The notes under the pieces were generated by a model, which saw nothing but the letters and a program-made list of their open reading frames with translations, was not told where the DNA came from and made no database searches. This document shows, in pieces, positions 297 to 23,612 of a stretch of DNA of 36,916 nt. This DNA comes from Candidatus Latescibacterota bacterium (lineage in GTDB: Bacteria > Krumholzibacteriota > Krumholzibacteriia > Krumholzibacteriales > Krumholzibacteriaceae), in NCBI GenBank assembly GCA_019038625.1, contig JAHOYU010000175.1, positions 1 through 36,916 of the forward strand. Reading direction: 5' to 3'. How positions within the stretch are numbered: position 1 is the first letter of the stretch; every line of letters begins with the position of its first letter. Position numbers and translations under genes: made by a program.

Positions 297-851
297 CGCT
301 GGAAGTCCACGCCAGCTCTTTATACGCTCAAGAACACGTACTATTCGTTCTCCTGACAGTGATGTATCTATCTCGATATCCAAGATCTCTCTTACTCCTT
401 CATCAAGCACATTAAAGGTCCTGAACCGGCGACCTATATAAAGCGTGTCGTGCATAAATTCTATCGACCAGACAGCGTTGGGCTCAGCAGGCACCTCAAG
501 AGTCTCATGGGTTCGCACAGGTAGCCGCTTCTTTGTCTTGCGCCGTTGGTTCAGGCCTAGCTCCTTGTATACCCGGTATATCCGCTTGTGATTCCACCGG
601 TGGCCATCCAGCCTGATCCGATCAAAACACTTCCAGAACCCCCAGCGTATGTTGTCTTCCATAAGCTCCTGAAGTGCATCTATCACTTCTCGATCTCTTG
701 CCAGCTTATCTACCAACGGCCGGTACCAGGCTGAACGTGATTGTCCTACCGCCCCGCATGCTTTTCGTATAGACAGTTTCTTCTCCGCCACCAGATACTC
801 TGCCACTTCTCGCCTCTTTGGTAGCGTAAGCTCCCATACACATACTGACAA
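297..851 (-). pseudogene. IS3-family transposase OrfB, 3'-truncated remnant
   Basis: Reading leftward from 851 (TTG), the protein has the helix-turn-helix region of IS3-type OrfB (KLSIRKACGAVGQSRSAWYR), a helical linker with KRIYRVYKELGL, and the start of the DDE integrase core (VWSIEFMHDTLYIGRRFRTF). Homology stops after ERIKSWRGLPA, just where the second catalytic Asp segment (DNGPEF-like) should follow; the open frame continues to 150 but that part is antisense to the protease. Two thirds of the catalytic core is therefore missing and the element cannot transpose by itself. No OrfA is visible upstream. The first catalytic residue is Glu (WSIEF) where Asp is usual. Confidence 0.85.
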
Positions 852-4744: not shown

Positions 4745-4745
4745 A

Positions 4746-5387
4746 TTATTCCTTGATTTCATCAAGGTTGCTTTGTGATCGTCTTAACTTCAGATTTATT
4801 CTTCTGGCGACTTCACTGAACAAGTCATCCCCAAGATCCAGCGCCGGATCAACCACTATATCCGTATCGCTCGGTTCCGAAACCGTGAAAATCGCTTTTC
4901 CCTGGATAACCGGTGTTTTCCCAAGTTTGTGCATGTTGATCACCGTCCCAGGTGCCGGTTTTCGTACCTGTAATCTCTCCTGCCCGGACATGATATTGTA
5001 TTCTTCACCCCTCATATTATCTTCCTCTTCCTGATCATGATAGGTCACACCAGAAAGATCCGGTCCGGAGTTTTTCCATCCTGCTCGTTTTACTTCGCGG
5101 ATAGAGCTTATCTGTCTATATGCCCGTCCTTTTTCAGTCTTTTTTTCAATAATTGTTTCAACAACTTCTTCTGTCACTTCGTTTATTTCCGCGCTTTCGA
5201 TTTCCTCGATTTCTACGGGATCATCTACGTCCCCTACTACAACCTCATCCTCTTCAATCGGAACCTGAAGCATTGTATCGTCTACCTCAATTCCCTGGTC
5301 ATCTGAGACCACATCAGGTTCTCCCCGGCTTCTTTTTCGAGTCTTAACTCTGCTGATCGCATCCTTTATCCAATTTATTATCTTCAT
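4746..5387 (-). CDS. Acidic, largely disordered protein, unknown
   Basis: This 213-aa protein begins with an amphipathic basic stretch (MKIINWIKDAISRVKTRKRS), continues as a long acidic low-complexity region (residues about 25-85, many E, D and V), and ends in a more ordered region. No signal peptide or membrane segment is present. Its ATG overlaps the previous stop by 4 bp (ATGA at 5384-5387), which suggests translational coupling. The basic N-terminal helix could bind membrane or an acidic partner. The architecture suggests an adaptor or linker subunit; I cannot name a family. Confidence 0.65.
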   Translation of the reverse strand: MKIINWIKDAISRVKTRKRSRGEPDVVSDDQGIEVDDTMLQVPIEEDEVVVGDVDDPVEIEEIESAEINEVTEEVVETIIEKKTEKGRAYRQISSIREVKRAGWKNSGPDLSGVTYHDQEEEDNMRGEEYNIMSGQERLQVRKPAPGTVINMHKLGKTPVIQGKAIFTVSEPSDTDIVVDPALDLGDDLFSEVARRINLKLRRSQSNLDEIKE

Positions 5388-7081: not shown

Positions 7082-9216
7082 TCAGACTCTGCTTTTCCTG
7101 ACGAATTACCCAACTTGATACCAAAACGCTTTTCATAATACTTTCTGTGAGCCTCGACAGTAAGCATGGGTATTGCCTCCCTGATGACATTATCCCGCCC
7201 GGGAAGGTCGGCTTTCCTCAATGTCTCGAAAAGTCCGGCCAGTCTATCCAGATTCATAGACCCGTTACCTTTCAGATCATTAATCAGATTATCGACTCTT
7301 CTGCGCCATTCCATGTCGCGTCTCTTGCTGGGAAATCTGCGCATTACAAGAACTATCCAGTCCGATCTGATTCCCGGGTTCAATTCGTCTGAATATCTAT
7401 CAAGGATACCGCTCTGCCCAAGTCCTGCCGCTGCCAGTTCCAGTATCGGCGTACAATCCTCTTCATAATATGTACTCATTGCATCCGTGGAGAGCCATGA
7501 TCCGAACACTTCCTCCAGCAATTCTTTATTGTCCTGCTCCACGGAGACTTCCATAAGCGAATGATAGGTGTTGTGTCGATCCTTTCCAGGATTCATGGAA
7601 AACAATTCGGACAACGAGCCTTCCTTGTCTACATCGAACAGCTTGGTCACGAAACGTGCTTTGAGGTAGCTCCTGTCCTCTCTGTCATCTACTCGCGAAA
7701 GCAGACCTCTCGCCTCATCTATCCTACTCTGGGCGACATAGTCATGCAGTTCTGATGTAAGCCGTTCCCGAAGCCAATGGTGTCTCAGTCGCCCGAGGTC
7801 CATCTCCAGCCTCTTCGGAAGCGAATTGAGATCTTCCTGCCAATCCTCAACAGGGATATTCTTCGATGCACCGCAGGCTGACAACACCATAGAGGCTTCC
7901 AGCCCAAATTCCATGAATTCTGGATACCTTGATCGCATTTCTTCGAGAGATGGGACCATCATGCCGAGAAAAAGTAATCCCCGGTTACTCCATATAGTCA
8001 CGGTTCCACGGCTGACCAGTTCGTCCGAAAAATTTTCCGGTATCGGCTCTTCTCCCACGGCACCGAGAACAATTGAAAGCTGCAGGCTCTCACCGCAAAA
8101 ACTCCCGTTGTCATAGATGATATTGGGACGTACCCCGACTATAAGATCTCCTACCCGCCTCCAGCAATTGGGAATGCCCTGGATTGCCCTACCCGCTAGA
8201 GAATCGAGAAGTGTGCCGATATCAGGATCCAGAGGCAGATTATTCTCCATAGAAGCTGGACTACGCACTATGTTCCTGAGTCTTAAAAATAGATCGCTCA
8301 GTCGCTTAATGTCGTCTGGCGCGGTCTGGGACCAGTCATTGATGGTAATCTCTGTCATGTCTGAAGACAACGACATGTCCCAATCGTCGTCCAGAGCTTC
8401 AGCCTTGATGCTCTTGGATACATATGGTGCTAAAACCAGCTTCAGATCTTTCATATTGTATGTCGGATATCCTGACAACAATTGCATCGGTGGTTCCACG
8501 GGCACGCTTATCTCTATCCTCGGCACTGTGACCTCGCGGAAAAATCCTGCTTCTTCCTGGATACCTGCTATTTCAGCACGTGCGATAGCAATGCTGGCGA
8601 AACTGATGGAATCGCTTTTTTTCTGGCTGTCAAACCAGGCCCCGAATGTCTGCAGGAGGGCTTGCACTGTTGCAAGCATACTTCTCCAGCCTCTATATAT
8701 CTCCTCGTCAGTCCGCAATGTAGCCCTTATTTCGTCCAGGACCGTTCCCCTGCCGAAGAATTCATCCGGCACGACCTTATCTTTTGGAAGTTCTGTCGTA
8801 TCAACAGCCGGCTCATCAGCTTCTCCTTCGGCAATAACATCAGTCGGTTCGTTTTCCATTATCAGGGCAAATAGTTTTGCCGATATCATCCTGAAAATGG
8901 AATCGCTATTTTCTTTGCCGGCATTGATATTATTCCAGTCATTTATCAGCCCTTGATCGTCATTCTCGTTCAGGATACTGGAAAGAGATTCCCTATCGAT
9001 TCCGAAAATCTCCTGAAGCTCAGGAGAAAAACGATCTACAAAGCCGCGTATCATGTCACGAGACGTTTCGTATTCCTTCGGAGCCTGCTGTCCGCTTTTC
9101 TTCCTGAATATCTTTCTCTCGATCGATCCTACGGCGTCCTTGCCGAACACTGAATCGTATCCTACTTTCCCAAGGTCGGATTCCCATTCGTTTATCAGAA
9201 TTCTTAATTGAGGCAT
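7078..9216 (-). CDS. Large soluble helical protein, unknown
   Basis: This is a 712-aa protein with no signal peptide and no membrane segment. The first 150 residues are helical and charged, the middle (about 230-440) contains mixed alpha/beta segments (VTVPRIEISVPVEPP, GTVTIWSNRGLLFLGMMVP), and the last 250 residues are a run of helices with spacing like TPR or HEAT repeats (RIDEARGLLSRVDDREDRSY, KELLEEVFGSWLS). I recognise no catalytic motif. It follows the pseudo-helicase gene by 13 bp and overlaps the next gene by 4 bp. A cytoplasmic scaffold or effector of the system is the likely role, by context only. Confidence 0.7.
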   Translation of the reverse strand: MPQLRILINEWESDLGKVGYDSVFGKDAVGSIERKIFRKKSGQQAPKEYETSRDMIRGFVDRFSPELQEIFGIDRESLSSILNENDDQGLINDWNNINAGKENSDSIFRMISAKLFALIMENEPTDVIAEGEADEPAVDTTELPKDKVVPDEFFGRGTVLDEIRATLRTDEEIYRGWRSMLATVQALLQTFGAWFDSQKKSDSISFASIAIARAEIAGIQEEAGFFREVTVPRIEISVPVEPPMQLLSGYPTYNMKDLKLVLAPYVSKSIKAEALDDDWDMSLSSDMTEITINDWSQTAPDDIKRLSDLFLRLRNIVRSPASMENNLPLDPDIGTLLDSLAGRAIQGIPNCWRRVGDLIVGVRPNIIYDNGSFCGESLQLSIVLGAVGEEPIPENFSDELVSRGTVTIWSNRGLLFLGMMVPSLEEMRSRYPEFMEFGLEASMVLSACGASKNIPVEDWQEDLNSLPKRLEMDLGRLRHHWLRERLTSELHDYVAQSRIDEARGLLSRVDDREDRSYLKARFVTKLFDVDKEGSLSELFSMNPGKDRHNTYHSLMEVSVEQDNKELLEEVFGSWLSTDAMSTYYEEDCTPILELAAAGLGQSGILDRYSDELNPGIRSDWIVLVMRRFPSKRRDMEWRRRVDNLINDLKGNGSMNLDRLAGLFETLRKADLPGRDNVIREAIPMLTVEAHRKYYEKRFGIKLGNSSGKAESD

Positions 9217-9229
9217 GCTCCTCCTCTTT

Positions 9230-12200
9230 TTACTTGCCCTTTCCGGGCCTTCCTATCCTGTTAGCATCAGCGTATACTTTTGACATCAGTTCACTTTTTG
9301 GATCCGACCATTCAGACCCGTCAGCTTCGGTGTCCGATGAATATTCTGTCACCTCTTTACCGAGAGCTGTCTCTATTCCTTCCATTGTCTCCTCATCTTC
9401 TGATCCGTCTATCCAGAGATTACAGCCGAAATCCAGGGGTTCTTCATCCGCTTCCGGATCCCTTGCGAGGACCACCTTCTTGAAATACTCCACAACGCGA
9501 TCGGCTATAGTGATATCCATTTCCGGAGACGGATCCGGAGGAAGATGGTCAAACTTCCCAAGTCTGGGGAAAAAACAATCCTGAATCCTGTACCACTCGG
9601 CTCCCTCTTCGTGCATAGATACAATCAAGGCTGCGATCTTCCTGATAAGGACGGGCTCTATCATGTTACAGACACCCAACCCTCCCGGCACATTATCTAT
9701 TATGGTCACATCATAATAAAGGTTCTCTGCCACTCCCCTGCTAAAAGGCTTAAAGCAGTTATGTGTCACATCAATTACATCCTCTGTATCGAGGCATACC
9801 ATCTTGAGATAACGCTTCAGGACGTGAGCAATAAGATGAGCCGATTCGGAATCGAGACCAGGGAAAAACAGGACCGAAGCATCTACTTCCATCTCTGAAG
9901 TGATCTGGCCTTCTATGCCATACAATGATTCTTCGATAAGATCCTGACCCCTCCAGGTCCTGTACCCGAGGATGACTTCTTTTATTTTCATCCTTGTCCT
10001 GTAGATTCCTATTCCCTCTTCAGAAAAGATATGATCACTCGCCAGAGTGATGTCTTTATTCTCGAGAATGAATATCTGCCTTATCTTCAGGGTTCGTAGA
10101 TCTTCAGGTTCCGGATAACATTCAAGGACACCCTTGATCGGCAATCCTTTTACTCTTACTCGTTCTCCATTAAGTGAGAAGATCCTTCCCGGCCACAGAA
10201 TCGAAAGTTGCCGCTGAGGGTCTATTTTTCTTCGAATCCCCAGTTCTATACAACGCACTTCGATCGGCGGAATATCATGATCCGGATCATCGACAGCCCC
10301 GTCAACCGTCCGGGTGACTGGGATGGCATACCCTGTATCGCGCCTGTAAGAAAAGGTTTTCCCATAAACAGGGTCATTAATTATCTGTACAGGTTGTTCT
10401 TCCTTGCCTTTACATTCCGCCTTCAAACTGATCAACAGATCCTCGAGGGCTCTTTTCCCGAAAAGTTCCGCGATTCGGTCTACAGGTTGTGGTTTTTCAA
10501 GGATCAGTCGCGTCATCTGTTTACGATTAAGGATAGGATTATCGATGCCTGGCAATAGAACAGGTGACACCTGATTGTGTCTGTACTGCAGGAATTCTCC
10601 TAAATGGTCATGCAGCCATTGCTCGAAGCCGTCTCTCGGAGGCATCATGAAACAGATATGATGTCCCGTGGTGCATGCTCTCGATAGTTCCCGTATCTCC
10701 GAGACCTGGGTAAAGAATGTTTCCGGAAGAAGCCTGACCAGGCTTACGACTACTGATTCTTCTGCGAATTCTTCCGCTCTGGTGGTCCAGCGCGCCAGGT
10801 CAAGACTGTCAAGATTCGCTTTTGCTCTCGGCCCTATGCTCAGGTAGAACTTCTCATATCCCGCATCCGCCATACCGCTACCAAACCGTGTCAACAGGTC
10901 AAGGTCGTCCTTGAAATTGAGGCTGTCCCGCCCCCTGTTGCCCATTGTCATCAGATCTATCCTTGAACCGCCCGCATAACCAAGTGGTAATTCGACAAAT
11001 TCGCGGCTTAGAAGCCTGTTAAAAGACCTCTGGTCCTCCCGAGCACCGTCGAGAACCGAGACCATGACAGGAAGGTCCGCTGGTTGCTTACCAGCGAGTG
11101 ATGTCATTCTCTTTATAATGAACGGTATCTCAGCCTTTATGAGGGGCGACGACTCATCAGTCTCAAATATTATCGCCAGATCCATTCTTGTCCAGAATAG
11201 CGACAACCGGTTCTCATGGTCGGCGATCCTGTCAAATGAACCGAGATCGGCAACCAGAATATCTATTTTATCAGCCGTACCCTTTACTTCGAAGAGGTGT
11301 TCGCTCCCCGCATATTCTATGTTGAAACATTGCACTGCGGGATAATGGTTACTGAACGCTTCAAGTCTTCGGATAAGCTTTGCCGCCTGATCGGCATTCC
11401 TCACCAGTATAAGAGAGCTTCCACCGCGAAATGCTGCTTCTATAGAGCACAGGATACCAACGACCTCACGACCCGACCCTCTTGGGCCATTGACAACAAG
11501 GGACAGCTTTTCTGATAAAAGCTTTTCCAGCGCATGGCAAAGGAATGCTTCAATATCACGTCTACCGAAGAGCTCGAGGCTGTCCTTCATTCGATCGGAA
11601 AGTTCTGCATCAGGAACCGGCACGGCATTTCCAGCATTCTGATGGATGGTCTCCCTGTACTTTATCGCGGAGTCATCTCCCCCGGTTCCCAGATATCTTT
11701 TGTCTGAAAGAAATTCTGGAAGTTTTTCAACTTCAATTTTCCGGCCCGTCTTCATGGGAGAACGGGTAAAATCGATACGGCTGCCCCAGACGGGTGCAAA
11801 CATCCGAGGCAATACAACCGGGAACAGGTGGGCCGCTGCCAGAAATGCAGGCGGAAGATAAAGACTGAAAAATATCGCCAGCAGGTCGGAAACAAGCAGA
11901 AACAGCACATAGACAGGTACCAGTATCACAAGCCATTTCTTTGTGCTGCCATCGAGACGATTATAATTCACGAAGCACAACACTCTCCACGTGCGCCTTG
12001 CGATGCGGGACCGCCTTGAGAAAGGTTCGACGTGGAGCCAGTCCAGATTGAAGATACGGTAGACCTGGCGCGGTAGAATAACGAGTAAAATACCTCCCAG
12101 TATCGTATACAACACCATTGGCAGAAAGAAACTCCTCGAACCAAATAAGAATCTGCTAATGGGTTCCGGAATCGGTCCAGCAGGTGTTCTCTGGAGCAGA

Positions 12201-12787
12201 AGACTCAGCGGGTCTGCACCCACAGCCCGTTCTATGAAGAGCGAGATTACAGCATATATCACGGCCACTATGATGAGGGATATGACAAGCAACGGAGCGT
12301 CATGAACCGCAATCTGCCACATCCCCTCTTTATCTCTGAGACCGGCCGAAGAAAATCTTTTATCAGTTTCAGAGTCATTATCTTCAATGTTGTTATCCTG
12401 ATTCAGGGGTTGTCCGTTTCCTGATCCGATCCCGGTCACTTCTTCAATATCACGGTCGATCTCAGCATTTTCGGGATTATCGTCTTCCTCTATTATTACA
12501 CCCGGTTCTTCATCCTTATCAGGTTCCGCGGAGGAACCGCTCTTCCCTTCAAAGTCAGATCCGATGTCTCCATACCTGGCGTTCAAAGATGGGAACTCAT
12601 CCAACAACAGATCGATATCCTGCTCCTGTTCGATTCTCAATCGTCGTCCGAGATAAAACAGGTACGTACCAATCGCAAAAAGGATGAAAATATATACGGG
12701 AAACACCCAGAGGACGGCAGCAGCCTGCAATGCTTCACCTATTTCATTCAGGCCGTTACCAAATATTTCGTTCAGAAGGTTATTCAT
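9230..12787 (-). CDS. Membrane-anchored DUF1998 helicase-like protein with degenerate ATPase motifs
   Basis: This 1185-aa protein has hydrophobic segments near residues 23-46, 165-187, 220-240 and 286-328, with an acidic linker (80-150) between the first two. Residues about 400-620 follow the order of an SF2 helicase first RecA domain: GPRGSGRE (434-441) where Walker A GxxGxGK[ST] is expected, a motif-Ia-like SLILVRNADQAAKLI, DILVADLGSF, and DLAIIFETDE where a DExH Walker B should sit. The Walker A Lys is Arg and the acidic box is not intact, so ATP hydrolysis is unlikely. The C-terminal part matches DUF1998 of YprA/MrfA-like helicases (LWPGRIFSLNGERVRVKG; IIDNVPGGLG near 1032-1038) but lacks the usual cysteine cluster. 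A membrane-bound helicase relative is very unusual; it probably serves as a nucleotide or nucleic-acid sensor or a scaffold. Confidence 0.7.
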   Translation of the reverse strand: MNNLLNEIFGNGLNEIGEALQAAAVLWVFPVYIFILFAIGTYLFYLGRRLRIEQEQDIDLLLDEFPSLNARYGDIGSDFEGKSGSSAEPDKDEEPGVIIEEDDNPENAEIDRDIEEVTGIGSGNGQPLNQDNNIEDNDSETDKRFSSAGLRDKEGMWQIAVHDAPLLVISLIIVAVIYAVISLFIERAVGADPLSLLLQRTPAGPIPEPISRFLFGSRSFFLPMVLYTILGGILLVILPRQVYRIFNLDWLHVEPFSRRSRIARRTWRVLCFVNYNRLDGSTKKWLVILVPVYVLFLLVSDLLAIFFSLYLPPAFLAAAHLFPVVLPRMFAPVWGSRIDFTRSPMKTGRKIEVEKLPEFLSDKRYLGTGGDDSAIKYRETIHQNAGNAVPVPDAELSDRMKDSLELFGRRDIEAFLCHALEKLLSEKLSLVVNGPRGSGREVVGILCSIEAAFRGGSSLILVRNADQAAKLIRRLEAFSNHYPAVQCFNIEYAGSEHLFEVKGTADKIDILVADLGSFDRIADHENRLSLFWTRMDLAIIFETDESSPLIKAEIPFIIKRMTSLAGKQPADLPVMVSVLDGAREDQRSFNRLLSREFVELPLGYAGGSRIDLMTMGNRGRDSLNFKDDLDLLTRFGSGMADAGYEKFYLSIGPRAKANLDSLDLARWTTRAEEFAEESVVVSLVRLLPETFFTQVSEIRELSRACTTGHHICFMMPPRDGFEQWLHDHLGEFLQYRHNQVSPVLLPGIDNPILNRKQMTRLILEKPQPVDRIAELFGKRALEDLLISLKAECKGKEEQPVQIINDPVYGKTFSYRRDTGYAIPVTRTVDGAVDDPDHDIPPIEVRCIELGIRRKIDPQRQLSILWPGRIFSLNGERVRVKGLPIKGVLECYPEPEDLRTLKIRQIFILENKDITLASDHIFSEEGIGIYRTRMKIKEVILGYRTWRGQDLIEESLYGIEGQITSEMEVDASVLFFPGLDSESAHLIAHVLKRYLKMVCLDTEDVIDVTHNCFKPFSRGVAENLYYDVTIIDNVPGGLGVCNMIEPVLIRKIAALIVSMHEEGAEWYRIQDCFFPRLGKFDHLPPDPSPEMDITIADRVVEYFKKVVLARDPEADEEPLDFGCNLWIDGSEDEETMEGIETALGKEVTEYSSDTEADGSEWSDPKSELMSKVYADANRIGRPGKGK

Positions 12788-12789
12788 TT

Positions 12790-15420
12790 TCAGACTCTTA
12801 ATTCATCCCATGGCTTAATGTCTTCGAATGTTTCGTCACTGCTCTTAATCCATTCTTCCATAAAATCGTCTATCTCATCGTTGCTGTGGTCCGGGTACAT
12901 GTATCGCAGAATCGATTGAATACTGATGTCACGAATGATCCGCAAACCCCAGATATGGTCCTTTTCGCTGGATATAATCTTCTTGAATGATGCCATCGCC
13001 CTGCTCTCCAGAGTCTGAATAAAACTCAAAGCTTCCTGGGGACATACGAGAAATATCTTCGTATCCTCGATGAGCTTGTCCTGTTCCTGCGATGTCAGAA
13101 AGTGAAATATCTGGCCGTGAGAAAGTCTGTCCGACAGTCCTGTAAGGAATTTTCCAAGTGAAAGTAAGAGTTTTTCCTCTTGAGATGGAAGCGAAAAGAC
13201 ACTGCAATCTTTGAAGAAGGGTATCTCCCTTTCCGCCTCTGACAGGACACGGTCGAAATCCGCCACTTCATTGAGGAATGAATCAACACCATCACGGCAC
13301 AACCTGTACGCGACATTCTGGGCTGATATCCTGATCGAAAGACTCTTGTTGATCTGGATGGCAAACTGTTCTGCATCCTGAGGATCGACGAGATAATCGT
13401 TGAAATAAAGATTCCTCTCGACCTCCAGTTCCCTGTCTTCATGCAGCATTTTCAGTTTATCTTCGATTCTTTCCAGGACTTTTGCGGCTGTTTCCCGGGC
13501 TTTTCTAACCCTGATCTCCACAAATTTCAATAACCCCTGGATCAGGCTCAACGATCCCAGCTCCTCATGCTTATACCACCATGAGCCGGTCTTTCTAGCC
13601 ATCAGTGAGCCGGCTGCGGGGAAAACTCCCATATAGTCAACTCCGCCTACTAATTCAGGAGCATCATCCTCCATCACTTCTTCCATGATCCTGCTTGATT
13701 CCGATGGCGTCGTATCAAGATATTTCTTGAGCCGGCGCCTGGTGTACAAATGGTACAGGCCCAGCAAGGGAAAACAGATTATGAATGAGACTATCAGAAG
13801 GGCTGGAAACAGCATGGGATGCTCATTAAAACTCTCCAGCAATCTCGCCCCCTCTGTAGAAGGATCGACGAATGTCTTCCAGAGCCTGAAAATTGCCAGT
13901 AGTTGTAGAGTTGAAAACACGGCCATAAGCGGGATCCAGATCCTGAAAGCGTAGCCCGGGATATAATTCCAGATCTGTCCCCTCAACCGGGCCCACATGT
14001 CGCGCACGATAGCAAATCTCCATCTTCTTTGAGGCAGTTTTTCCTCTTCGGAATCAAGCAGTCTTCGCGCCTGACGGATTATAGTTTCCTCGCACGTCCT
14101 GAGGGCCGCACAAAATGTATTCAGTGAATAACCAGCCTTTCCCGTTTCGAGGAGATCGACAAGCTCGTTATCAAGCATTCCCATGATGCGTTTGAGTTCG
14201 CTGTTGCATATATCTCTGAGTAACCGGGCCTTTTTATGAAAGTCCAAAGCGACGTCCTGCCCCGGAGGAGGGTAACAACTGTCGATCAGGTGTTCGAGCC
14301 ATTTCCGGTCGAAATACCTCTCCAGAGTTTCCGGGGGATACCGATACGGTTCCAGAGGGAAGGTCTGGCCTGAAGCAAAGATCTCGAAAAGTCTTTCTTC
14401 AAGAGCAGGAGTAGTGGCGCTGATCCTTCCCTTGTAATGAAAAAGCATTTCGTGGATCGTGTCTCTGTATCTTTCTCTGCCTGTGACATTACGCAGAGTA
14501 TTGGAATCTATTATCTCGTCCTGTATAATTCTGGAAATCCCCAGAATTTCAGCCTGCTGGGCCGGCTGCCCTACATTTCTTCCTTCGGGAACCCTGGCCA
14601 TCTGGCTATACAGATCTTCGACTATCAGCGAGAGTGCTTTCTGATGGAAATATTTTCTTGTGAATTGAATAGTCGCCAGACTCAATACACAGAAGAAATC
14701 CTCTCCGTATTTCGAAAAATTAAGCAGTAGACGAAATTCAGAATCAGCCCGGATTCCTCCCCTGGTACAGAGACCGATAAAGTGTGATGTGATACCTACG
14801 ATCTCAACATCGTTAAGCTGAATATTGTTCGTAAATCCATCATACAGGAAGAACCTCGGTATGGCGGGTCGCCCCTCTTTCTGAAGATTCGTATGCCAGG
14901 CCTCGATGTTTGCCAACTGGCGAGCGATGATCTTTCGGCTCGGCTCGCGGGGCATGTTTACCGACAGGGCAACTGGATGAATAAAAAGACGCGCGTTGCA
15001 CAAGTCATCCCTGAAACTGAATATTGACGAGTATCTTTCGTGAGCGAGCCGCTCGATAAATGGTAGTACAAGAGGAAGGTAGAACCTGAAATCCTCATCG
15101 CGCCAGGCCCCGCAGACGAAAACGTCGAGATAATAAGAGTATCCGAAATTCTTTACCGGCCTGTCACCGAGAAGCTTTTCAAAAGCTGTCGCAATGTTTT
15201 CCAGGAGTTTGTTCTCGCTGCTCGACCACAATCTGTCGGGCGAACGATCGATTTTACCTGATCTTTTCGTACAATGGCTCAGTACGATGAATGTCGAGGA
15301 ATCTTCACGATTGATATCCTCTGAACTTCCCTCTCCGTACTCGTCGAGATAGTGTTGAGCCACCTGCTCACCCATCTCGCCGATTCCCAGAATTATCGAC
15401 TGGCACTTGAGGATCTTCAA
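12790..15420 (-). CDS. Membrane-anchored divergent tubulin-like protein (pseudo-GTPase candidate)
   Basis: This is an 876-aa protein. Its first 260 residues line up by eye, segment by segment, with the Tubulin_2 protein encoded two genes upstream: SIILGIGEMGEQVAQHY against the GLGGAGGQ loop, YLDVFVCGAWRDEDFRFYLP against the GGTGSG segment, FFLYDGFTNNIQLNDVEIVG against the FIYVIDTNPDVFIDNWKVS strand, and a matching helix after it. The tubulin signature GGTGSG is replaced by GAWRDED, so GTP binding is probably lost. Two membrane segments lie near residues 491-511 and 537-557, followed by about 300 soluble, partly coiled residues. The ATG overlaps the previous stop by 4 bp. Membrane tethering of the tubulin-like filament is the inferred role. 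Confidence 0.6.
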   Translation of the reverse strand: MKILKCQSIILGIGEMGEQVAQHYLDEYGEGSSEDINREDSSTFIVLSHCTKRSGKIDRSPDRLWSSSENKLLENIATAFEKLLGDRPVKNFGYSYYLDVFVCGAWRDEDFRFYLPLVLPFIERLAHERYSSIFSFRDDLCNARLFIHPVALSVNMPREPSRKIIARQLANIEAWHTNLQKEGRPAIPRFFLYDGFTNNIQLNDVEIVGITSHFIGLCTRGGIRADSEFRLLLNFSKYGEDFFCVLSLATIQFTRKYFHQKALSLIVEDLYSQMARVPEGRNVGQPAQQAEILGISRIIQDEIIDSNTLRNVTGRERYRDTIHEMLFHYKGRISATTPALEERLFEIFASGQTFPLEPYRYPPETLERYFDRKWLEHLIDSCYPPPGQDVALDFHKKARLLRDICNSELKRIMGMLDNELVDLLETGKAGYSLNTFCAALRTCEETIIRQARRLLDSEEEKLPQRRWRFAIVRDMWARLRGQIWNYIPGYAFRIWIPLMAVFSTLQLLAIFRLWKTFVDPSTEGARLLESFNEHPMLFPALLIVSFIICFPLLGLYHLYTRRRLKKYLDTTPSESSRIMEEVMEDDAPELVGGVDYMGVFPAAGSLMARKTGSWWYKHEELGSLSLIQGLLKFVEIRVRKARETAAKVLERIEDKLKMLHEDRELEVERNLYFNDYLVDPQDAEQFAIQINKSLSIRISAQNVAYRLCRDGVDSFLNEVADFDRVLSEAEREIPFFKDCSVFSLPSQEEKLLLSLGKFLTGLSDRLSHGQIFHFLTSQEQDKLIEDTKIFLVCPQEALSFIQTLESRAMASFKKIISSEKDHIWGLRIIRDISIQSILRYMYPDHSNDEIDDFMEEWIKSSDETFEDIKPWDELRV

Positions 15421-16406
15421 TTCTCACCGCCGTTTTCACTCAAGCCCAGCCATCTCATTACGAATTCGGGCATCTTCCCGGAGATATCTGCTCTGTCGGG
15501 CGCTGTCCTGCGTGCGAGAGAATCGAAGTATTTATCCAACACCTGAGGTCTGTTTTTTACCGTTTTCCCATACTTTTTCATGAATCCTTTTCGTGGATCT
15601 GCCCCTGTATCACCAGGTTCGGGCCACGCGGGCAAGGGATCGTTGAGCACTCTTTTAAACGATTCATAGTAGATCCCACTGATGGTAAAGTCGCTCAGTG
15701 TCCTTGCAACCCCTATAGACAGCCACTGGTTCCCCGCGTGAAATACCGTCTCTTCGGAGGGTACTTTCAACCGCGCGGGGCTCATGGCACGTCGAACCTC
15801 TTCAGGATACTCCTCACCCGGTGTAACCGGCGGGATCCTCTCCCACGATGCTGTGTCGTCCGACTCGACCTTGCTTTTTTTGTCCTCTGGTTGATATATC
15901 CCCAGTGTACGACAACACTCCGGCCATCTCGACAATCGTTGAAGGGGTTCCTCGAGCTTGTCGTTCAGAATCCAGACAGTTTCCGCCATCCTGACAATCA
16001 TCTCCTGAGAATAGAAGCCTCCTGGATTATCAAGCACGAACAGGGTCCCCGAAGCATCAGCCCTGCCTACGACCCGCAGTTCCAGGTCACGGAGGCCGCC
16101 GTATATCCTTGCCTCAGTCAGGAGCCTGGTCTCGTATTCTACATTCATGCTGTAAACATCTGGAAGGTAAGCGACTATCAACCATTCTCCCTCATAAGAA
16201 TGGCTGGCCTGTACCGCTTCGAAATCGGAACAGTCTACGATAATAACGCCACGCCCGTTCCTTCCCTTGCCAGCACCGGGAACTGGAAAACTCTTATGGG
16301 AAGCATAATGGTCCATCCATACTCTTCGCCCGGAAGAACTGACAAGTTCAGCCGTCTCGGGCCAGTGCCGCCCCAGGAATACAATCTGCCGGTTTTCTTC
16401 TTTCAT
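15417..16406 (-). CDS. Soluble protein between the two tubulin-like genes, unknown
   Basis: This is a 329-aa protein without signal peptide or membrane segment. The N-terminal 150 residues alternate strands and helices (RQIVFLGRHWPETAELV, GRGVIIVDCSDFEAV, GEWLIVAYLPD, GTLFVLDNPGGF), which suggests a Rossmann-like alpha/beta domain, and the C-terminal third is helical and basic. No nucleotide-binding loop is evident. It starts 12 bp after the Tubulin_2 gene and overlaps the next by 4 bp (ATGA, 15417-15420). This tight position suggests it contacts one or both tubulin-like proteins. Family not recognised. Confidence 0.65.
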   Translation of the reverse strand: MKEENRQIVFLGRHWPETAELVSSSGRRVWMDHYASHKSFPVPGAGKGRNGRGVIIVDCSDFEAVQASHSYEGEWLIVAYLPDVYSMNVEYETRLLTEARIYGGLRDLELRVVGRADASGTLFVLDNPGGFYSQEMIVRMAETVWILNDKLEEPLQRLSRWPECCRTLGIYQPEDKKSKVESDDTASWERIPPVTPGEEYPEEVRRAMSPARLKVPSEETVFHAGNQWLSIGVARTLSDFTISGIYYESFKRVLNDPLPAWPEPGDTGADPRKGFMKKYGKTVKNRPQVLDKYFDSLARRTAPDRADISGKMPEFVMRWLGLSENGGEN

Positions 16407-16418
16407 ACCGATTCCAGA

Positions 16419-19400
16419 CTAACTTTTCTTTCCAAGACCACTATCATAAGATTGGCGATGTTTTTCTTTTCTTTTTGTCTCAAGGATCTTTTTCTTCTCG
16501 CACTCCATATATTCCTGAAGGAGATCGGCCAGCTCCTTTATCTCAGTATCGTCTTCCTCGTTCCCCCATACATCGCCTGACAGCAGCGACAGACAGAATT
16601 CCCTCTGCTTTTCGATCTCATCGAGATCAAGAGCACTTGACGATCCGAACGTCTTCTCCATCAATTCATGCGCACTGTGAGCCTTCATCATCGCCTGGAT
16701 AGCTTCTCTCGCGGACTGCCCGAGAAGAATATCTTCTCCTATGTTGCCCAGTTTGCCTGAAGGAACCACGAATCCCCTGTCGTCATCACGGATGATATGC
16801 CCTTCTTTATAAAGGGTGTACCAGTATGAGAAGAATTTGCAGCTCTCCTCGTTGATCATGCTACTCGAGACGAGAGCCTCTTCAGGATCGAGAGATAGGG
16901 GCAGCTTGCTTTCATCGATGCCCGGATCACCCATTTCCCAGTTTCTATCTATATGAAGGGGATACTGGCGGCCGTGCTGAGGTCTCGTCCAGTCCCTCTC
17001 TCCGAGTCTGGTGTTGTAAGCCTCCTTCATCGTGGTTACCAGGTTTCTGAATACAAAGAGTGGAACACCGAGCACCGCGCGGTAGAAAATAGCCATTTTC
17101 CCGTTATCGGAATAATCCTTATCAACAAATTCAGGACTTACTCTTCTTACCAGGTGAGGAAAATCAAGCGATTGCACATCAGGCTTCGGATCAGGATACA
17201 GATCATGGTCATAACACACGAGTGATTGCTTGCACGAATACTCTGTTACTTCCATATCCTCCATATCGATATTGGCCATAATCGCGCTTCGCCTGACACA
17301 TGTAGATATCTTGGTTTCGAGATAGTTCCTCATGAATCTCTGCATCTCGACATCAAGTTCGCGCTGAGAACGATTGAGAAGTTTTTTCTCGGTACTGTAG
17401 ACAATATCGATCCAGTTCTCCTCACAGTCCTCCAGTCTTCCCATCGCTCTGAGCCGCCCTCTGAATTTAAGCTGTGCTTCGGCCATAAGAGCCTGCTGCA
17501 GATTCAGCCCCCTTTTTTCTTTTCCTTCCTTGTACGTGCCGACGATCCTCGGCCTCAGGGCTTCTTTGACGTTTTCCGTGAATACGATCCGGATCCGGTC
17601 GACCTGGTCCCTGACGGTCGTCAGGTTGGGATCGCTGAAAACGCTTGCGATCGTCTTATGTACCTCTCTGGTCCTTATTTTCACACTTTCCTTGACGAAC
17701 ACGTTGTAGTATTCATTCCACATCCGAGCACCGTCAAAGCCCTGTAAAGCCTCGATATCGTTGTAATACTGTTCGGCCTGTGTATCACCCCCAGGATTCT
17801 TCTGGAATTCGCTGGCCTGCCTGGCAAGTTCCTTTATCTCTTTATCGGCCTGTGTGCTGAACATGCGGAATGTCTCGCCCAGTTCAGTGAAGATCTCGAG
17901 CAACTTCGCGTGAAGATCGTGATAGAACTGCAGAAATACGAGGGTCGAATACCGGGTAGATATGGTGTTGATCCACATATCCAGTCTCTCGACTGATTGG
18001 CTGAAGTCTTCGGCACCACTTCCCCGTGTGACTTCTGATATCCATTCGTGCCACTTTGTCTTCGAGGCTTCTCGAAGTTCTTCATCGCCCCTGATTACTG
18101 CTATCGATTCGTTAAGAGCCTGTTCGCTATTATCGAGCCTGTTCTGTTCCAGGACTTTCCTCAAAATAGTGCAGACTGAATCACTGAGTTTGATGTTGGC
18201 GATTATGAACAGCCTCTGCATATGAAACGGCGTTCTTTCGTGAGCGAGGAAGTCGGTAATAAAACTCCTCTTTAATGTGTCGTCCATCATATTAGTCTTC
18301 TGACGGACTTTCTCCCTCGCGCTGTGCAGGTCTCTTCGATTCAACTTTATGTTCGCATCGAAGATATCCTGCATGTCCTCCCAACTCTCCTCCTTCGCGC
18401 TCTCCCCGCGAGTGGTCCTGTGATGCTGCAACTGAACGGCCCTTGCGGTATCTTCGAAAAACAGTGAACTGAGCCTGTCCCAGAAACGCCGGAAAGTGCC
18501 TGTAGACAGATAATTCAGGCCTTCCCGTTCTTCGATAAGCAACGTACTCTCCAGTACATCACCGAATTTATTATAAGCGAAGAAGAATGGTTCGAGCTTG
18601 GCCAGGTACTGGCGCGACACCTTGCCACCGCCGGGCTGCGATCCGCTATCCCCGGATTCATCGCCTTCGAATACATCCATATTCTCAGGTGAGATGTCTT
18701 CCGGAAGAATCAGCTTGTACAGCAGGCTCTTGCTTTCCTCGTCCATCGGTTTTGTGGCCAGATCATCGACCGAGTTCTGCAACCCCTTGAGATTCAGAGA
18801 TTTCGCATACCCTGCCTTTTTCAATTCGTTGAGATACTTATTGCCTCCGTGGCTGTCCTGACGGTCATGCATATATTCCACGAATTTTTCGTCATAGAGG
18901 CGATCCTGTTCCTTGCTGTCCAGTCCTTCGAGATCATCAAGCTTAGGGATATAATCCTTTTTACCTGAAGGAAGCATAAGAAACAGTCTTGCAGAAAGAT
19001 GTTCCTGGATCACGTCGGCGGTCTTCCTCATCGAACAGTATTCGAGAAGGTCGTTATCGGGAAGAACCAGAACGGAGCAACCGTAACTCCCATAGAACGT
19101 ACTGTAAAGTCCTCTAGCGAGCCGCTTCTGGTTCTTTTCGTAATTGTCGTAGTCGCTGTTCCTGTGAGCGAATATCGGCGAGAACAGCTGTAGATAAATT
19201 GCGTCTGCAACCGATACCTTCCAGTTATCGATAAAAACGTCCGGATTGGTATCTATAACATAGATGAAATCAAACGGACTTTCGGTTATCTCGGTATCTG
19301 AAATAAATGGATGATAGACAAACGATCTCCTGTTCCTGGCATCACGAAGGTCAGAGAAGACCTTGAGATGCATCAGGTGCTCGTCCTCTTTCATGGCGCT

Positions 19401-20075
19401 GTATCCGTTGGCCATGATGTCTCCTCTCTGCCTCATGTTCCGGATTTTTGGCAGAACGAGAGTGGAGAGCATCGATATGCCGGTTATATTGGCCGACCAT
19501 CCGAAGTTATTGATCAGGTTTCGAATGATCGCAGCAAACATCAGGTGGGCACCCGAACCAGTGCCTCCCGCCACAGTATAGTACATGAAGACGTTGAACT
19601 TCTTTACTTCATAGGACAGCATCGTGTTCTGCATGTCGATGGTCGAGAGGATAGCTGACTCGAGCCGCTTGATCAGGTCGGTCGATTCGAGGCTGTTGTA
19701 GAGGCTCACCCTGCTCTCTATCCTTATCTGGCCGGCTCCCGCGCCCTGCGAAGAACGGAAGTTATACCAGTCGTGAATCCACTGATCGACCCTTGGATCG
19801 GGATCAGGTTTGCTCGCCCCACCTCGTCCGAGTTTATCCTTGACCCAGAGCCCCTTGTCGAACCCGCTTATGGCATAACGGTGCGCCTGGGGTACGTGCC
19901 TGCACCCATCCAGATCAGCCTTGTCTGTATCGATAACGAAGAACTGCATCGTCTTCTGAAGCAGTTCCCAGTCATCCCTGTCTCCCAGAATGGAAGCTAT
20001 CCGGTTGACGATCTGCCCGCCGGCTCCACCCAGACCGATGAACAGTGTCGGTGGATGTTTACGATCATTAATCAT
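16419..20075 (-). CDS. Tubulin_2 family (FtsZ/tubulin-like) GTPase, very long form
   Basis: The protein is about 1218 aa from ATG 20075, which has GGGAG nine bases upstream; ATG 20096 overlaps the vWA stop (ATGA) and is the alternative. The N-terminus shows PPTLFIGLGGAGGQIVNRI, the first nucleotide loop of tubulin-like GTPases, then SSQGAGAGQIR, which is typical of Pfam Tubulin_2 (PF13809), and AGGTGSGAHLMFAAIIRNL (GGTGSG near residues 170-175), the tubulin/FtsZ signature that contacts GTP phosphates. FIYVIDTNPDVF fits a later core strand. After about 400 residues of tubulin core come 800 residues of helices, much longer than FtsZ. Such proteins are expected to bind GTP and perhaps polymerise in the cytoplasm. 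It follows a vWA lipoprotein, a pairing reported for some bacterial FtsZ-like families linked to membrane remodelling. Confidence 0.88.
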   Translation of the reverse strand: MINDRKHPPTLFIGLGGAGGQIVNRIASILGDRDDWELLQKTMQFFVIDTDKADLDGCRHVPQAHRYAISGFDKGLWVKDKLGRGGASKPDPDPRVDQWIHDWYNFRSSQGAGAGQIRIESRVSLYNSLESTDLIKRLESAILSTIDMQNTMLSYEVKKFNVFMYYTVAGGTGSGAHLMFAAIIRNLINNFGWSANITGISMLSTLVLPKIRNMRQRGDIMANGYSAMKEDEHLMHLKVFSDLRDARNRRSFVYHPFISDTEITESPFDFIYVIDTNPDVFIDNWKVSVADAIYLQLFSPIFAHRNSDYDNYEKNQKRLARGLYSTFYGSYGCSVLVLPDNDLLEYCSMRKTADVIQEHLSARLFLMLPSGKKDYIPKLDDLEGLDSKEQDRLYDEKFVEYMHDRQDSHGGNKYLNELKKAGYAKSLNLKGLQNSVDDLATKPMDEESKSLLYKLILPEDISPENMDVFEGDESGDSGSQPGGGKVSRQYLAKLEPFFFAYNKFGDVLESTLLIEEREGLNYLSTGTFRRFWDRLSSLFFEDTARAVQLQHHRTTRGESAKEESWEDMQDIFDANIKLNRRDLHSAREKVRQKTNMMDDTLKRSFITDFLAHERTPFHMQRLFIIANIKLSDSVCTILRKVLEQNRLDNSEQALNESIAVIRGDEELREASKTKWHEWISEVTRGSGAEDFSQSVERLDMWINTISTRYSTLVFLQFYHDLHAKLLEIFTELGETFRMFSTQADKEIKELARQASEFQKNPGGDTQAEQYYNDIEALQGFDGARMWNEYYNVFVKESVKIRTREVHKTIASVFSDPNLTTVRDQVDRIRIVFTENVKEALRPRIVGTYKEGKEKRGLNLQQALMAEAQLKFRGRLRAMGRLEDCEENWIDIVYSTEKKLLNRSQRELDVEMQRFMRNYLETKISTCVRRSAIMANIDMEDMEVTEYSCKQSLVCYDHDLYPDPKPDVQSLDFPHLVRRVSPEFVDKDYSDNGKMAIFYRAVLGVPLFVFRNLVTTMKEAYNTRLGERDWTRPQHGRQYPLHIDRNWEMGDPGIDESKLPLSLDPEEALVSSSMINEESCKFFSYWYTLYKEGHIIRDDDRGFVVPSGKLGNIGEDILLGQSAREAIQAMMKAHSAHELMEKTFGSSSALDLDEIEKQREFCLSLLSGDVWGNEEDDTEIKELADLLQEYMECEKKKILETKRKEKHRQSYDSGLGKKS

Positions 20076-20092
20076 AATCTTTTTCTCCCTGA

Positions 20093-22474
20093 TCATTTGA
20101 GCCTGATAACAAAACGACCTTCTTCTATCTCACCTGGGACCGGATAACTGATAGAACCGCGTACCGGTACAAGCTTGTTCTTGTCAGAGGGAGCTTCCTT
20201 GCCCGTCACTCTGTGCAGATCACCCAGCCTGATCAGTATCTTTCCGCCCGACCGGAAAAAACCAACGTTGGTATTTCCGACCTTGGCCTTGAAAGGCCTG
20301 GCGAACGGTCCTGTAGGGAATCCAAGGACTGATTGGATCAACCGGCCCAGTTTGCTTCCGAAACTCGAATCCAGATATTTGTTTTGAGTTTTCTTTCCTT
20401 TCCTCTTGTTAGTAAAGGATTTTACCATCGTCAACGGATATAAAAACAGAAGTGCCTTTAGATAGGAAGAGAGCAAGCCTTCACCTGGACGCGGACTGTG
20501 ATATCGCCTGAGGGCCCTCTTCGGCTTATATGAGATCTTCCGTGTACTGTAACCAAACACGTAATGTAAAGGACGATAGATGAAGAAAAGGAAGATCCAC
20601 AGATAGATCAGCCACTGCAGCCAGAAATGACTGGTCCTCCATGCCCAACCGAGCTCCTGGATCTCGGCTTTCACGCCGATCTCCTTGTCTCCCTTTATCT
20701 TTCCTGCATTTGAAGGATATATGATCGGTACTACAAGTCTCTTTCCAAGCTTTCTAGCGTCACGATTGATATCGAGATAGAAATCAGCCTTATAATCTTC
20801 GTCTATGACGAAACGCTTTCTATGGCGCCGGTCGGTCAGTCGGATTCGATATTCGTCATAAAGTTTTTCTTCATCGAGCTTGAATACCACTCCCCTGAGA
20901 GCCGGATCGGTACCTTTGAATCTCACAACAGCTTTATTCTTCCTCCAGTTCTCAGCATAAGGAAGTTTAAGCAATTTACTCACGCATCGACACCACCAGT
21001 AATACATACCGTCGGCAAAAGGAATGACTTCTCCAAAATCAGCGTCGTTGTTGACCCTCAGAATGACTCCGTCCTTGCCTCCGAACTTAACGTTGATTGT
21101 CCGGTTGAGCCACATGCTGTTACCGGCCGAGCAGACAAGGTCGTGAAATAAGGTGTCCTTCGGCGTAATTTCCATCTCGAATCCGTATCGCTCATCTGGC
21201 CTGTCCTCGAGGGATGTCTCCACGTAATTAAGGGAGTACTTAAACTCTCCCTCACTGAAAAATTCAGGATCCTTGATCGGCTCCCCGCTGCTGTCTACCA
21301 GACGTCCCCGGACCAGGTTGGGAGCATTCATCAGACCCCTTTTCGGGTACTTGCCGTATATCTGTAAATAAACATCGTAATTCTGGATCAGAAGGGCTGA
21401 CGCATCCTCTAGCCCTTCCAGCTTGAAATCCCATGAACCAGGATTCGGATCGTTGACATGAATGATCTGGTAAGGCCCCAGATGCTCTGTCCTGTCCATT
21501 CGAACATAGCCCGACCCTCCTAATTGACTGGACAGCTTGCTTCCTTCCGGGTCCTCGAAGGAAACGGACAGCTGATCCCCCTTATCGGGGATGAAGAGAA
21601 CAAATTCCTTAACATACTTGTTAATATTTACTGAAGTCTTGCCCTGCAGCGGGCAGGGCTCTACCCTGGTTTCCAGTATCTTTCCGAAAACTTCGGCGAA
21701 TTTTCCCACAAGGTCCTCGGGTCGCCCGGCCTTGAGTATCGTTCCCCCCGTCGCCTCAGCCAGAGGAAGAAGATGGTCTATCCTCGTAGCATCACCGAGA
21801 GCCACACCGTAGAAAACTATATTATTCTTTTTAAGGACATCCCGGTACTTGAGAAGATTCTCCTTCTCTCGCCTGTGTATCTCTTCCATCCAGGAATTCG
21901 TGCGTTTTCCACCCCGGTCAGTGTTTCCGTCTGTAAAAAGTATCAGATAGCGTTTCGCCTCAACAGGTTCCATCGACGAAAGATTCTTGACTGCCCTGTA
22001 GATCGGCTCCTCGAACACGGTGATCTGCGAATAATATTCAAGACTCTTTACCCAGTCCTTCAGTTCACCATTACCGGACGGATCGTTCCTTAATGGCCCT
22101 ATCTGGTCTGCCGTCGATGACTTCCAGCCTGCACAACTGGCATTGATTACATCGGTTGCCAGCTTGTCCGAGCTGACGACACCCGGATTAGGAAAGCTCG
22201 TTATGTAAAGTTGATCCATATCGCTGAGCATATCGATGAAGACAAGAGACGAGAAAAGCATCATCTTCTGCTTGTCATTCCTTTTCATGCTTCCCGAGCT
22301 ATCGAGGACCAGGGCGAGGTTCCTTTGCAGCGGAGGAGCACCCTTGGACCATGTGATCTCATCGTCAGGGATCTTATCCTTTTTGAACTTGGCTGCAAAA
22401 TCACCTATGGTGTCACAGCCAATAAGAGACAAAATTCCTGCAAACAGAATCAAAACAACGAACGATCGTTTCAT
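20093..22474 (-). CDS. vWA-domain lipoprotein with C-terminal membrane segment
   Basis: This is a 793-aa protein. The N-terminus is a lipoprotein signal (FAGILSLIGC, lipobox cysteine at residue 20). A von Willebrand factor A domain follows, with an intact MIDAS motif DSSGS (58-62) and the strand LILFTDGNTD, so it can bind a metal ion and a protein ligand. Residues about 280-600 are beta-rich and look like linked Ig-type segments. One strong membrane segment (WLQWLIYLWIFLFFIY, about 615-640) is followed by a basic region of about 150 residues predicted to be cytoplasmic. This topology would put the vWA domain outside the inner membrane and a tail inside, able to reach the Tubulin_2 protein encoded immediately downstream with overlapping genes. 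It follows the M48 gene by 16 bp. Confidence 0.88.
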   Translation of the reverse strand: MKRSFVVLILFAGILSLIGCDTIGDFAAKFKKDKIPDDEITWSKGAPPLQRNLALVLDSSGSMKRNDKQKMMLFSSLVFIDMLSDMDQLYITSFPNPGVVSSDKLATDVINASCAGWKSSTADQIGPLRNDPSGNGELKDWVKSLEYYSQITVFEEPIYRAVKNLSSMEPVEAKRYLILFTDGNTDRGGKRTNSWMEEIHRREKENLLKYRDVLKKNNIVFYGVALGDATRIDHLLPLAEATGGTILKAGRPEDLVGKFAEVFGKILETRVEPCPLQGKTSVNINKYVKEFVLFIPDKGDQLSVSFEDPEGSKLSSQLGGSGYVRMDRTEHLGPYQIIHVNDPNPGSWDFKLEGLEDASALLIQNYDVYLQIYGKYPKRGLMNAPNLVRGRLVDSSGEPIKDPEFFSEGEFKYSLNYVETSLEDRPDERYGFEMEITPKDTLFHDLVCSAGNSMWLNRTINVKFGGKDGVILRVNNDADFGEVIPFADGMYYWWCRCVSKLLKLPYAENWRKNKAVVRFKGTDPALRGVVFKLDEEKLYDEYRIRLTDRRHRKRFVIDEDYKADFYLDINRDARKLGKRLVVPIIYPSNAGKIKGDKEIGVKAEIQELGWAWRTSHFWLQWLIYLWIFLFFIYRPLHYVFGYSTRKISYKPKRALRRYHSPRPGEGLLSSYLKALLFLYPLTMVKSFTNKRKGKKTQNKYLDSSFGSKLGRLIQSVLGFPTGPFARPFKAKVGNTNVGFFRSGGKILIRLGDLHRVTGKEAPSDKNKLVPVRGSISYPVPGEIEEGRFVIRLK

Positions 22475-22490
22475 AATCTCTCCCGCATTA

Positions 22491-23612
22491 TCATTTTACG
22501 CGAACATCCTGCATTCCCAGGCGTGCGAGCCTCTGCCAGCGTCGCATCGAATTAGGATGAGACTGCTCGAGTTCCGATAAAAACGTAACAATATCTCCGA
22601 TAACTGTATTTGATTCGAGGGATCGACTGTGGGCGACGACAGTAGCGAACAGGTCATAACGGCGCGGGAACCCGCTTTTTCCGAGACTCACGCGCATATC
22701 CTCAAGTTTCATCAGGGATGTTATAAGACCTGAGGCGCTACCGCTGAGAATAACCCCGTAATCATCAGCCAGATATTCGGCAAGCTGGGATTCCCAGTAC
22801 AGCAAAGCCCTGGGCAGCCATAACGGCATACTTATCATGTTGATTATAAGTCTGATAACGAAGCTGAACCCTGAAAAGACAAAGCGTAATATCCCTAACG
22901 GTAATCGCTCAAGATACATGAACACAGTCTTAATAATTCGATTGATCATTTGCACGGGCCAGAACAGGTAGTGAAGTATTTTAGTGACTTCCGAGAACAT
23001 ACAGGTGACGATATAGTCGTTTTCAACGATATGTCCTGTCTCGTGAGCAAGGATCGAACGCAGCTGGGGCAGGCTCATCTCCTGAAGAACATCGAGAGCA
23101 AAGACGATCCTGGCCCTGTCCAGGTTGCCATATGTTATGACATTGGATTTAATCCTGTCAGTGTAATATACGTCCGCATGTTTATCGATAAGCCCCTGCC
23201 TCATCCATAGTCTCAGATCAGATCCGAGAGTGTGCAACTTTCTGTTACAGTCCGCGTTTATCGAAGGTTCTCCCTCACCCTCCGGAAGCTTCACCCTTAC
23301 ATCAAGGTCCCGATCATATATCCTCGGAAGGGAAAAATATGTGAGCAACCCCGGGACAACAGCCGCCATGATGACTATCAGCAGAAGCGTACCGATGATC
23401 TCGAGAGGTATCATCTGGCTGAAATCGAAGATCTTCAGCGGTACGTTGACGATGACTATGACAGAGGCAACAAACGATGTGACTATGATCAGGATCGTCA
23501 GGACTATAAGGAATATTGCCAGCTTTTTACCAAGAACAAGGGGCAGACTGTGACTCCGCAGAAGTTCGACAAGTTCAACCCTCGAAAGACTTGTCCTGAT
23601 ACCAGTAAACAA
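22491..23612 (-). CDS. M48-family (HtpX/Ste24-like) membrane zinc metalloprotease
   Basis: This is a 373-aa protein starting at TTG 23612, with AGGGA six to seven bases upstream. It has two hydrophobic segments at about residues 31-56 and 67-95, then the M48 zinc motif LAHETGHIVENDY (HETGH 190-194), a further hydrophobic region (about 212-270), and the third zinc ligand in EYLADDYG (E279, D283), the usual ExxxD of M48 enzymes. All catalytic residues are present, so it should be an active membrane peptidase, with length close to the family norm. As first gene of the operon it may process or turn over the membrane subunits encoded downstream, as HtpX does for membrane proteins; that part is inference. 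Confidence 0.9.
   Translation of the reverse strand: MFTGIRTSLSRVELVELLRSHSLPLVLGKKLAIFLIVLTILIIVTSFVASVIVIVNVPLKIFDFSQMIPLEIIGTLLLIVIMAAVVPGLLTYFSLPRIYDRDLDVRVKLPEGEGEPSINADCNRKLHTLGSDLRLWMRQGLIDKHADVYYTDRIKSNVITYGNLDRARIVFALDVLQEMSLPQLRSILAHETGHIVENDYIVTCMFSEVTKILHYLFWPVQMINRIIKTVFMYLERLPLGILRFVFSGFSFVIRLIINMISMPLWLPRALLYWESQLAEYLADDYGVILSGSASGLITSLMKLEDMRVSLGKSGFPRRYDLFATVVAHSRSLESNTVIGDIVTFLSELEQSHPNSMRRWQRLARLGMQDVRVK

Follow-up and report, generated by a model that had tools for sequence, protein, structure and literature searches.

Profile comparisons and a predicted structure support the assignment of PSH, a protein encoded in the stretch of DNA analysed here (the window; 36,916 nucleotides), to the YprA superfamily by descent, with a RecA1-RecA2-OB-CON-MZB domain order homologous to that of the helicase MrfA. 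Alignment shows that the parts that would couple ATP hydrolysis to nucleic-acid movement, namely the P-loop lysine, DExH and the stretch bearing motifs V-VI, have been lost, and we infer that PSH performs no ATP-driven translocation. From hydropathy alone, it is predicted to be an integral membrane protein.

The PSH gene lies within a tight, co-directional gene run, with 4-base overlaps or short gaps to its neighbours, and most neighbouring genes of the run overlap by a few bases or stand 2-17 bases apart (Table 1). The order is TAXI-channel, M48 peptidase, vWA, Tubulin_2/FtsZl1, a 329-aa protein, an 876-aa protein (hereafter, the companion), PSH, a 712-aa and a 565-aa protein, and smaller genes. 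The Tubulin_2 and vWA genes are adjacent, overlap and belong to one predicted operon, which fulfils the criterion for an FtsZl1 operon. By tblastn, no counterpart of the 712-aa or 565-aa gene was found in the loci of PSH relatives.

Table 1. Features of the window, with residue numbers for parts of PSH
Feature	Position	Strand	Basis or remark
TAXI-channel gene	23766-26744	minus	wider gap before the M48 peptidase gene
Membrane M48 peptidase	22491..23612	minus	PF01435, E 4.1e-16
vWA-domain protein	20093..22474	minus	PF00092, E 1.9e-6
FtsZl1 / Tubulin_2 protein, GGTGSG intact	16419..20096	minus	PF13809, E 2.2e-42
329-aa protein, unknown family	15417..16406	minus	4-base overlap with the companion gene
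Companion protein, 876 aa	12790..15420	minus	predicted tubulin-like fold at about residues 1-275; predicted membrane segment near 538-556
Membrane-anchored pseudo-MrfA (PSH) gene, 1185 aa	9230..12787	minus	ATG start, single open frame
N-terminal membrane region, residues 22-335, about 5 hydrophobic segments	11783..12724	minus	Kyte-Doolittle
Acidic loop, about residues 77-146	12350..12559	minus	sequence; low pLDDT in the model
RecA1-like domain, residues 410-582	11042..11560	minus	DEAD matches of relatives, 6ZNP profile match, pLDDT about 52-83
Walker A remnant GPRGSGRE, residues 434-441 (K->R, T->E)	11465..11488	minus	alignment
Motif II remnant DLAIIFETDES, residues 536-546	11150..11182	minus	alignment
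Truncated RecA2-like region, residues 640-730	10598..10870	minus	no motif VI; motif V-VI stretch missing
OB/connector/MZB ('canopy')-like region, residues 800-1070, beta-rich	9578..10390	minus	partly covered by the MrfA profile alignment
MZB-like turn D-N-V-P-G-G-L-G, residues 1031-1038, without Cys4	9668..9703	minus	alignment
712-aa protein	7078-9216	minus	no Pfam match; co-directional with the PSH gene
565-aa hydrophobic protein	5384-7081	minus	no Pfam match; co-directional with the PSH gene

Some other genes of the window deserve mention in their own right. At the end of the run, a gene for a 720-aa right-handed beta-helix protein (2603-4765, minus strand; PF13229, E 4.8e-55), which may begin with a zinc ribbon, might share the PSH operon. 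Near the contig end, an ORF (150-851, minus strand) resembles an IS3-type transposase fragment, as judged by eye only. The product of the TAXI gene resembles a ligand-gated potassium channel; in it, a TAXI/NMT1_3 solute-binding domain (E 2.2e-45) is joined to a region like the pore of an ion channel and to two RCK units of Slo/BK type (E 3e-16). In Azospirillum ramasamyi (L009), too, a TAXI gene adjoins the tubulin gene, and a reviewer of an earlier paper (PMC2875224) remarked upon a TRAP-type periplasmic protein next to FtsZl1 in Polaromonas.

Taken alone, the window protein had no match at E<=1 in either Pfam or PADLOC, and PADLOC returned no match for any of nine operon proteins, PSH included. 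A phmmer search of the PDB with the single sequence gave chance matches only, and the first genome-wide scan with PSH itself found no relative. Because the lone protein matched neither Pfam nor PADLOC, its assignment to the SF2/DUF1998 helicases, made in a first-pass annotation, could not be confirmed without relatives. The family was reached via the neighbouring tubulin gene, whose GTPase part was aligned and used for a scan. Seven of the operons so obtained (L015-L021, largely Myxococcota and relatives) were at 37-45% identity, and in L017, L019 and L020 the companion is followed downstream by a homologue of the window PSH. A profile search of 379 genomes of the phylum Myxococcota located the family in 23, and with further searches the homologues number more than 25 in Myxococcota plus one in an Acidobacteriota genome (G703). 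No family member was found in a 40-genome set of another phylum or in 79 other genomes of the window's own phylum. Weak matches in that phylum (L002 and L003) were dismissed as chance; the long ORFs of these loci encode membrane-transporter-like and TPR-like proteins. In the A. ramasamyi tubulin operon, P0007 (L009:20560-23916, plus strand; 1118 aa) has N-terminal hydrophobic stretches. Its profile match to the family was only borderline (E 1e-4, prob 58), BLAST gave no significant match, and it was not accepted as a homologue; perhaps it is another, more distant lineage.

The relatives reveal the ancestry of PSH. Pfam DEAD is matched by 17 of 21 of them (E 2e-6 to 2.8e-10), and 8 of the 21 match Pfam MZB, which is the former DUF1998 and the zinc-binding domain of MrfA. 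The best PDB match of the family profile was MrfA/YprA (6ZNP, E 1.4e-9). When the family was aligned by profile to nine true MrfA proteins, which came from the window genome and eight further ones, the alignment ran over 538 columns, starting ahead of RecA1 and reaching into the canopy, with an E of 1.1e-21, or 6.1e-16 when the window protein was left out; six column-shuffled controls gave E values of at least 0.21. The window PSH alone aligned to the Myxococcota relatives over 562 columns (E 1.9e-5; at least 0.12 in eight shuffles), and the gene order around it is the same as in the relatives.

An AlphaFold model of the window PSH, built with 21 sequences, was weak overall (mean pLDDT 51.9, pTM 0.34) and fair in RecA1 and the canopy, with pLDDT mostly 75-85 over residues 860-990. 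Its four best PDB fold matches were all MrfA chains (E 3.6e-16 to 1.9e-11). The TM-scores were low (TMq 0.17) because the relative placement of the domains was not predicted, and, given the poor overall confidence, no surface can be read from the model. The SF2/DUF1998 assignment thus stands, carried by the DEAD and MZB matches of the relatives, the MrfA profile alignment, the 6ZNP match and the fold search, and comparison of the low-confidence predicted structure with MrfA agrees with it. MrfA/YprA (PDB 6ZNP, 6ZNQ, 6ZNS), the best PDB match both by profile and by fold, shares with PSH the RecA1 domain, a RecA2 remnant, the beta-rich canopy and the D-x-x-P-G-G-x-G turn, in the same order. In contrast, PSH adds a membrane bundle, is without DExH, motif VI, Cys4 and, in the window, GK[ST], and has FtsZl1 in its operon instead of MrfB.

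In the window protein, the P-loop remnant reads G434-P-R-G-S-G-R440-E441, and the motif II position is occupied by A538-I-I-F-E-T-D-E545, with FETDE in place of DExH. This confirms two claims of the first-pass annotation, that Walker A ends in GRE (GSGRE) and that the DExH box is missing. All nine true MrfA controls carry SGK[ST], DE[IL]H, SAT, QxxGRxGR and CxCxxGCPxC. Motif VI (QxxGRxGR), present in nine of nine controls, is absent from the window PSH and its relatives, the stretch that bears motifs V-VI in MrfA is missing from the family in the alignment, and the zinc Cys4 (CxCxxGCxxC; again nine of nine controls) is found in no family member. In true MrfA, the counterpart of the MZB turn is YDxxPGGxG plus CxCxxGCPxC. 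With the motif V-VI stretch and Cys4 also gone, degeneration exceeds what had been claimed. In addition, motif Ib, a nucleic-acid contact, is TNPDMLH in MrfA versus ADL[EG]xF in the PSH family, a change that argues against translocation.

The same losses occur in the relatives, so the ruined ATPase motifs are a trait of the family and not a local mutation or sequencing error. The losses are not uniform. Arginine takes the place of the Walker lysine in the window PSH and in subfamily A, in each of its 14 Myxococcota members (GxGR[TS]), whereas subfamily B (L075-L083, L124-L126) keeps it, as GxGK[TS]T with hhhDD. Motif II in relatives is mostly VVxDD, with DD or variants in nearly all and DELH in one, L080. 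The first-pass question of whether K and DE are always lost thus has a divided answer: K is lost in the window PSH and in subfamily A and kept in subfamily B, and DE is lost in nearly all relatives with L080 as the exception. In the tree, the window PSH forms a long branch outside A+B (support 86-89); consequently, the lysine-to-arginine change may have occurred twice, or the window branch may be misplaced. For three close pairs of relatives, dN/dS was 0.15 (L071/L072), 0.18 (L080/L081) and 0.23 (L067/L069), indicating that the relatives are under purifying selection and are not decaying. Because the window genome keeps an intact MrfA (G000 C193, with SGKT, DEIH, QQAGRAGR and Cys4), PSH and MrfA are not substitutes for each other. 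Eight other sampled genomes also encode an intact MrfA, and seven of these eight carry the PSH family too.

Kyte-Doolittle analysis of the window PSH gave five hydropathy peaks, at residues 22-40, 167-185, 220-238, 281-299 and 292-310, and N-terminal hydrophobic segments are present by the same measure in nearly all relatives. These peaks agree with the several membrane segments claimed in the first pass. The acidic linker, which had been placed in front of the helicase region, does precede it, yet lies inside the membrane part, between the first and second hydrophobic segments. Basic stretches follow the third and the fifth of these segments, and from them we infer, by the positive-inside rule, that the large C-terminal body is cytoplasmic.

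We found the tubulin gene and/or the companion beside PSH in 24 of the 25 loci with upstream contig available; L069 and L077, which end at contig ends, were left out of this count. Both genes are present in 23 loci, usually in the order tubulin-companion-PSH. L082, on a 3.1-kb contig, has the companion only, and L068, the sole exception, has neither. In several cases, vWA genes are found upstream or downstream. The link to a tubulin-like system, proposed earlier from the window alone, is therefore backed by synteny in three phyla. PSH is not an obligatory subunit, since some FtsZl1-companion pairs occur without it (L015 and genome G080); at L015, the tubulin and companion genes are followed by a MoeA-like gene, and the genome has no PSH match.

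The companion is apparently a membrane-anchored pseudo-tubulin, a call based on sequence comparison and a model and less certain than the MrfA call for PSH. Of the PDB matches listed for its AlphaFold model (pLDDT 62.6), 49 of 50 were tubulin-superfamily chains, including CetZ, BtubA/B, TubZ and alpha/beta/gamma-tubulin; the best, CetZ 3zid, had a modest E of 4.7e-3. A profile match to FtsZl1 was weak (E 1.6e-4; shuffles at least 0.73) and collinear with the tubulin domain. The GGTGSG phosphate loop is absent in 13 of 13 companions checked, and GG[TS]GSG is present in 18 of 20 FtsZl1 proteins. By hydropathy, the companion and its relatives have one or two central hydrophobic segments. Two other candidate companions, P0009 and P0014, were not supported by profile comparison. 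Some tubulin/vWA operons of conflict systems are known to have two tubulin genes (PMC7159879).

Sequence profiles, fold and synteny support the descent of PSH from a DNA helicase of the MrfA/YprA (DUF1998) line that became fused to a membrane-spanning bundle and was recruited into an FtsZl1 (tubulin-like) operon. We infer that PSH now has no catalytic role and serves at the inner membrane as a scaffold or receptor. The FtsZl1 GTPase and the companion, as a membrane-anchored pseudo-tubulin, would both dock onto the RecA1-canopy body in the cytoplasm, contacts that are likewise inferred, and docking would fix or cap FtsZl1 assemblies at the membrane, on the inference that FtsZl1 forms polymers. 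The vWA protein may be a further partner of the complex. We regard this inferred function, that of a scaffold without catalysis, tethered to the membrane within an FtsZl1 complex, as the most likely one, though only as somewhat probable. Against it, there are no interaction, localisation or phenotype data, and operon context alone is no proof of a complex.

It is also conceivable, if unlikely, that PSH is a nucleic-acid sensor within a conflict (defence) system. Its canopy or RecA1 body would then still be able to bind DNA or RNA at the membrane, such as phage or plasmid DNA on its way into the cell, and PSH would pass the signal to the FtsZl1/vWA module. YprA-family proteins do belong to the core of the DISARM, Dpd, Druantia and ARMADA systems (PMC12458937), tubulin plus vWA operons are listed among NTP-dependent conflict systems (PMC7159879), and Thermus/Meiothermus plasmids have a tubulin-like gene close to BrxL. 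However, PSH has lost the motifs with which SF2 helicases grip nucleic acid (Ib and V-VI), the window operon has neither a PADLOC match nor a nuclease or methylase that we could find, and no PSH relatives were found in viral contigs or, by tblastn, in phages or plasmids. In the plasmid loci themselves (L010, L011 and L013), a tubulin-like gene stands with a vWA gene and a gene of unknown identity upstream of BrxL; helicase, methylase or exonuclease genes lie nearby, and the arrangement may represent a tubulin-containing defence island. At L012, on a plasmid of Azospirillum sp. TSA2s, three caspase-family and several OmpA-family genes flank the tubulin-like gene.

The state of the phosphate loop raises the question of whether PSH is instead an ATP-binding switch, in which binding, with lysine in subfamily B and arginine tolerated in subfamily A, alters the shape of the protein and controls FtsZl1 assembly without helicase activity. 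ATP binding could still be relevant in subfamily B, which retains GxGK[TS]; there, GxGK[TS]T comes with hhhDD, and even with DELH in L080. Conservation of G-x-G-R-[TS] in 14 of 14 Myxococcota subfamily A members places the loop under selection. In the window PSH, however, K->R is joined by T->E, with FETDE at the Walker B acid, and an acidic residue beside the phosphate site disfavours nucleotide binding; moreover, motif VI, which supplies the arginine finger, is absent in all family members. We consider such a switch quite unlikely. It is very improbable that the gene is a decaying pseudogene or an assembly error with locally damaged motifs, as its very long branch and the lack of a homologue in 79 other genomes of its phylum might suggest, given the intact 1185-codon frame inside a tight operon, the same motif losses in other phyla, and dN/dS well below 1 in relatives.

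We compared the scaffold proposed here with systems already described. Membrane remodelling has been the predicted role of FtsZl1 operons since 2010, with most partner genes lacking a recognisable domain. The vWA operons described by Makarova and Koonin 2010 (PMC2875224) resemble ours in having Tubulin_2 with GGTGSG, vWA and membrane proteins of unknown family; in contrast, the main text of that paper does not mention a helicase, whereas here we find a pseudo-helicase and a second, putative tubulin-fold protein. The YprA defence clades DISARM DrmA/DrmB, Dpd, Druantia, ARMADA, BRIGADE and TALON share the helicase core, and the DUF1998 Cys4 is lost in Dpd as well, but they are described as defence helicases with methylases or nucleases nearby (PMC12458937). 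That survey of about 52,000 proteins contains, in its text, no tubulin or membrane-anchored clade (PMC12458937). Unlike DISARM (DrmA/DrmB), the window operon has no PADLOC match and, by Pfam, no methylase or PLD neighbours. Utp25 is likewise a helicase-like protein that has been called a pseudohelicase, but it is a eukaryotic ribosome assembly factor without an FtsZl1 operon (PMC9539457). We found no paper in the open-access literature describing the combination of PSH, companion and FtsZl1.

With two partners of the FtsZl1 operon given an identity, as an ex-helicase and an apparent ex-tubulin, both predicted to be membrane-anchored, the system becomes testable with defined constructs. We advance only tentatively the wider reading, which falls somewhat short of an even chance, that these operons encode a multi-phylum membrane machine in which two retired enzymes, a pseudo-tubulin and a pseudo-helicase of MrfA descent, both anchored in the membrane, organise an active tubulin-like GTPase, and that a clade of YprA has accordingly been recruited to the cytoskeleton or membrane and not to nucleic acids. 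If this is true, the YprA helicases, whose other known roles are in DNA repair and phage defence, would gain a branch that seemingly does not work on nucleic acids.
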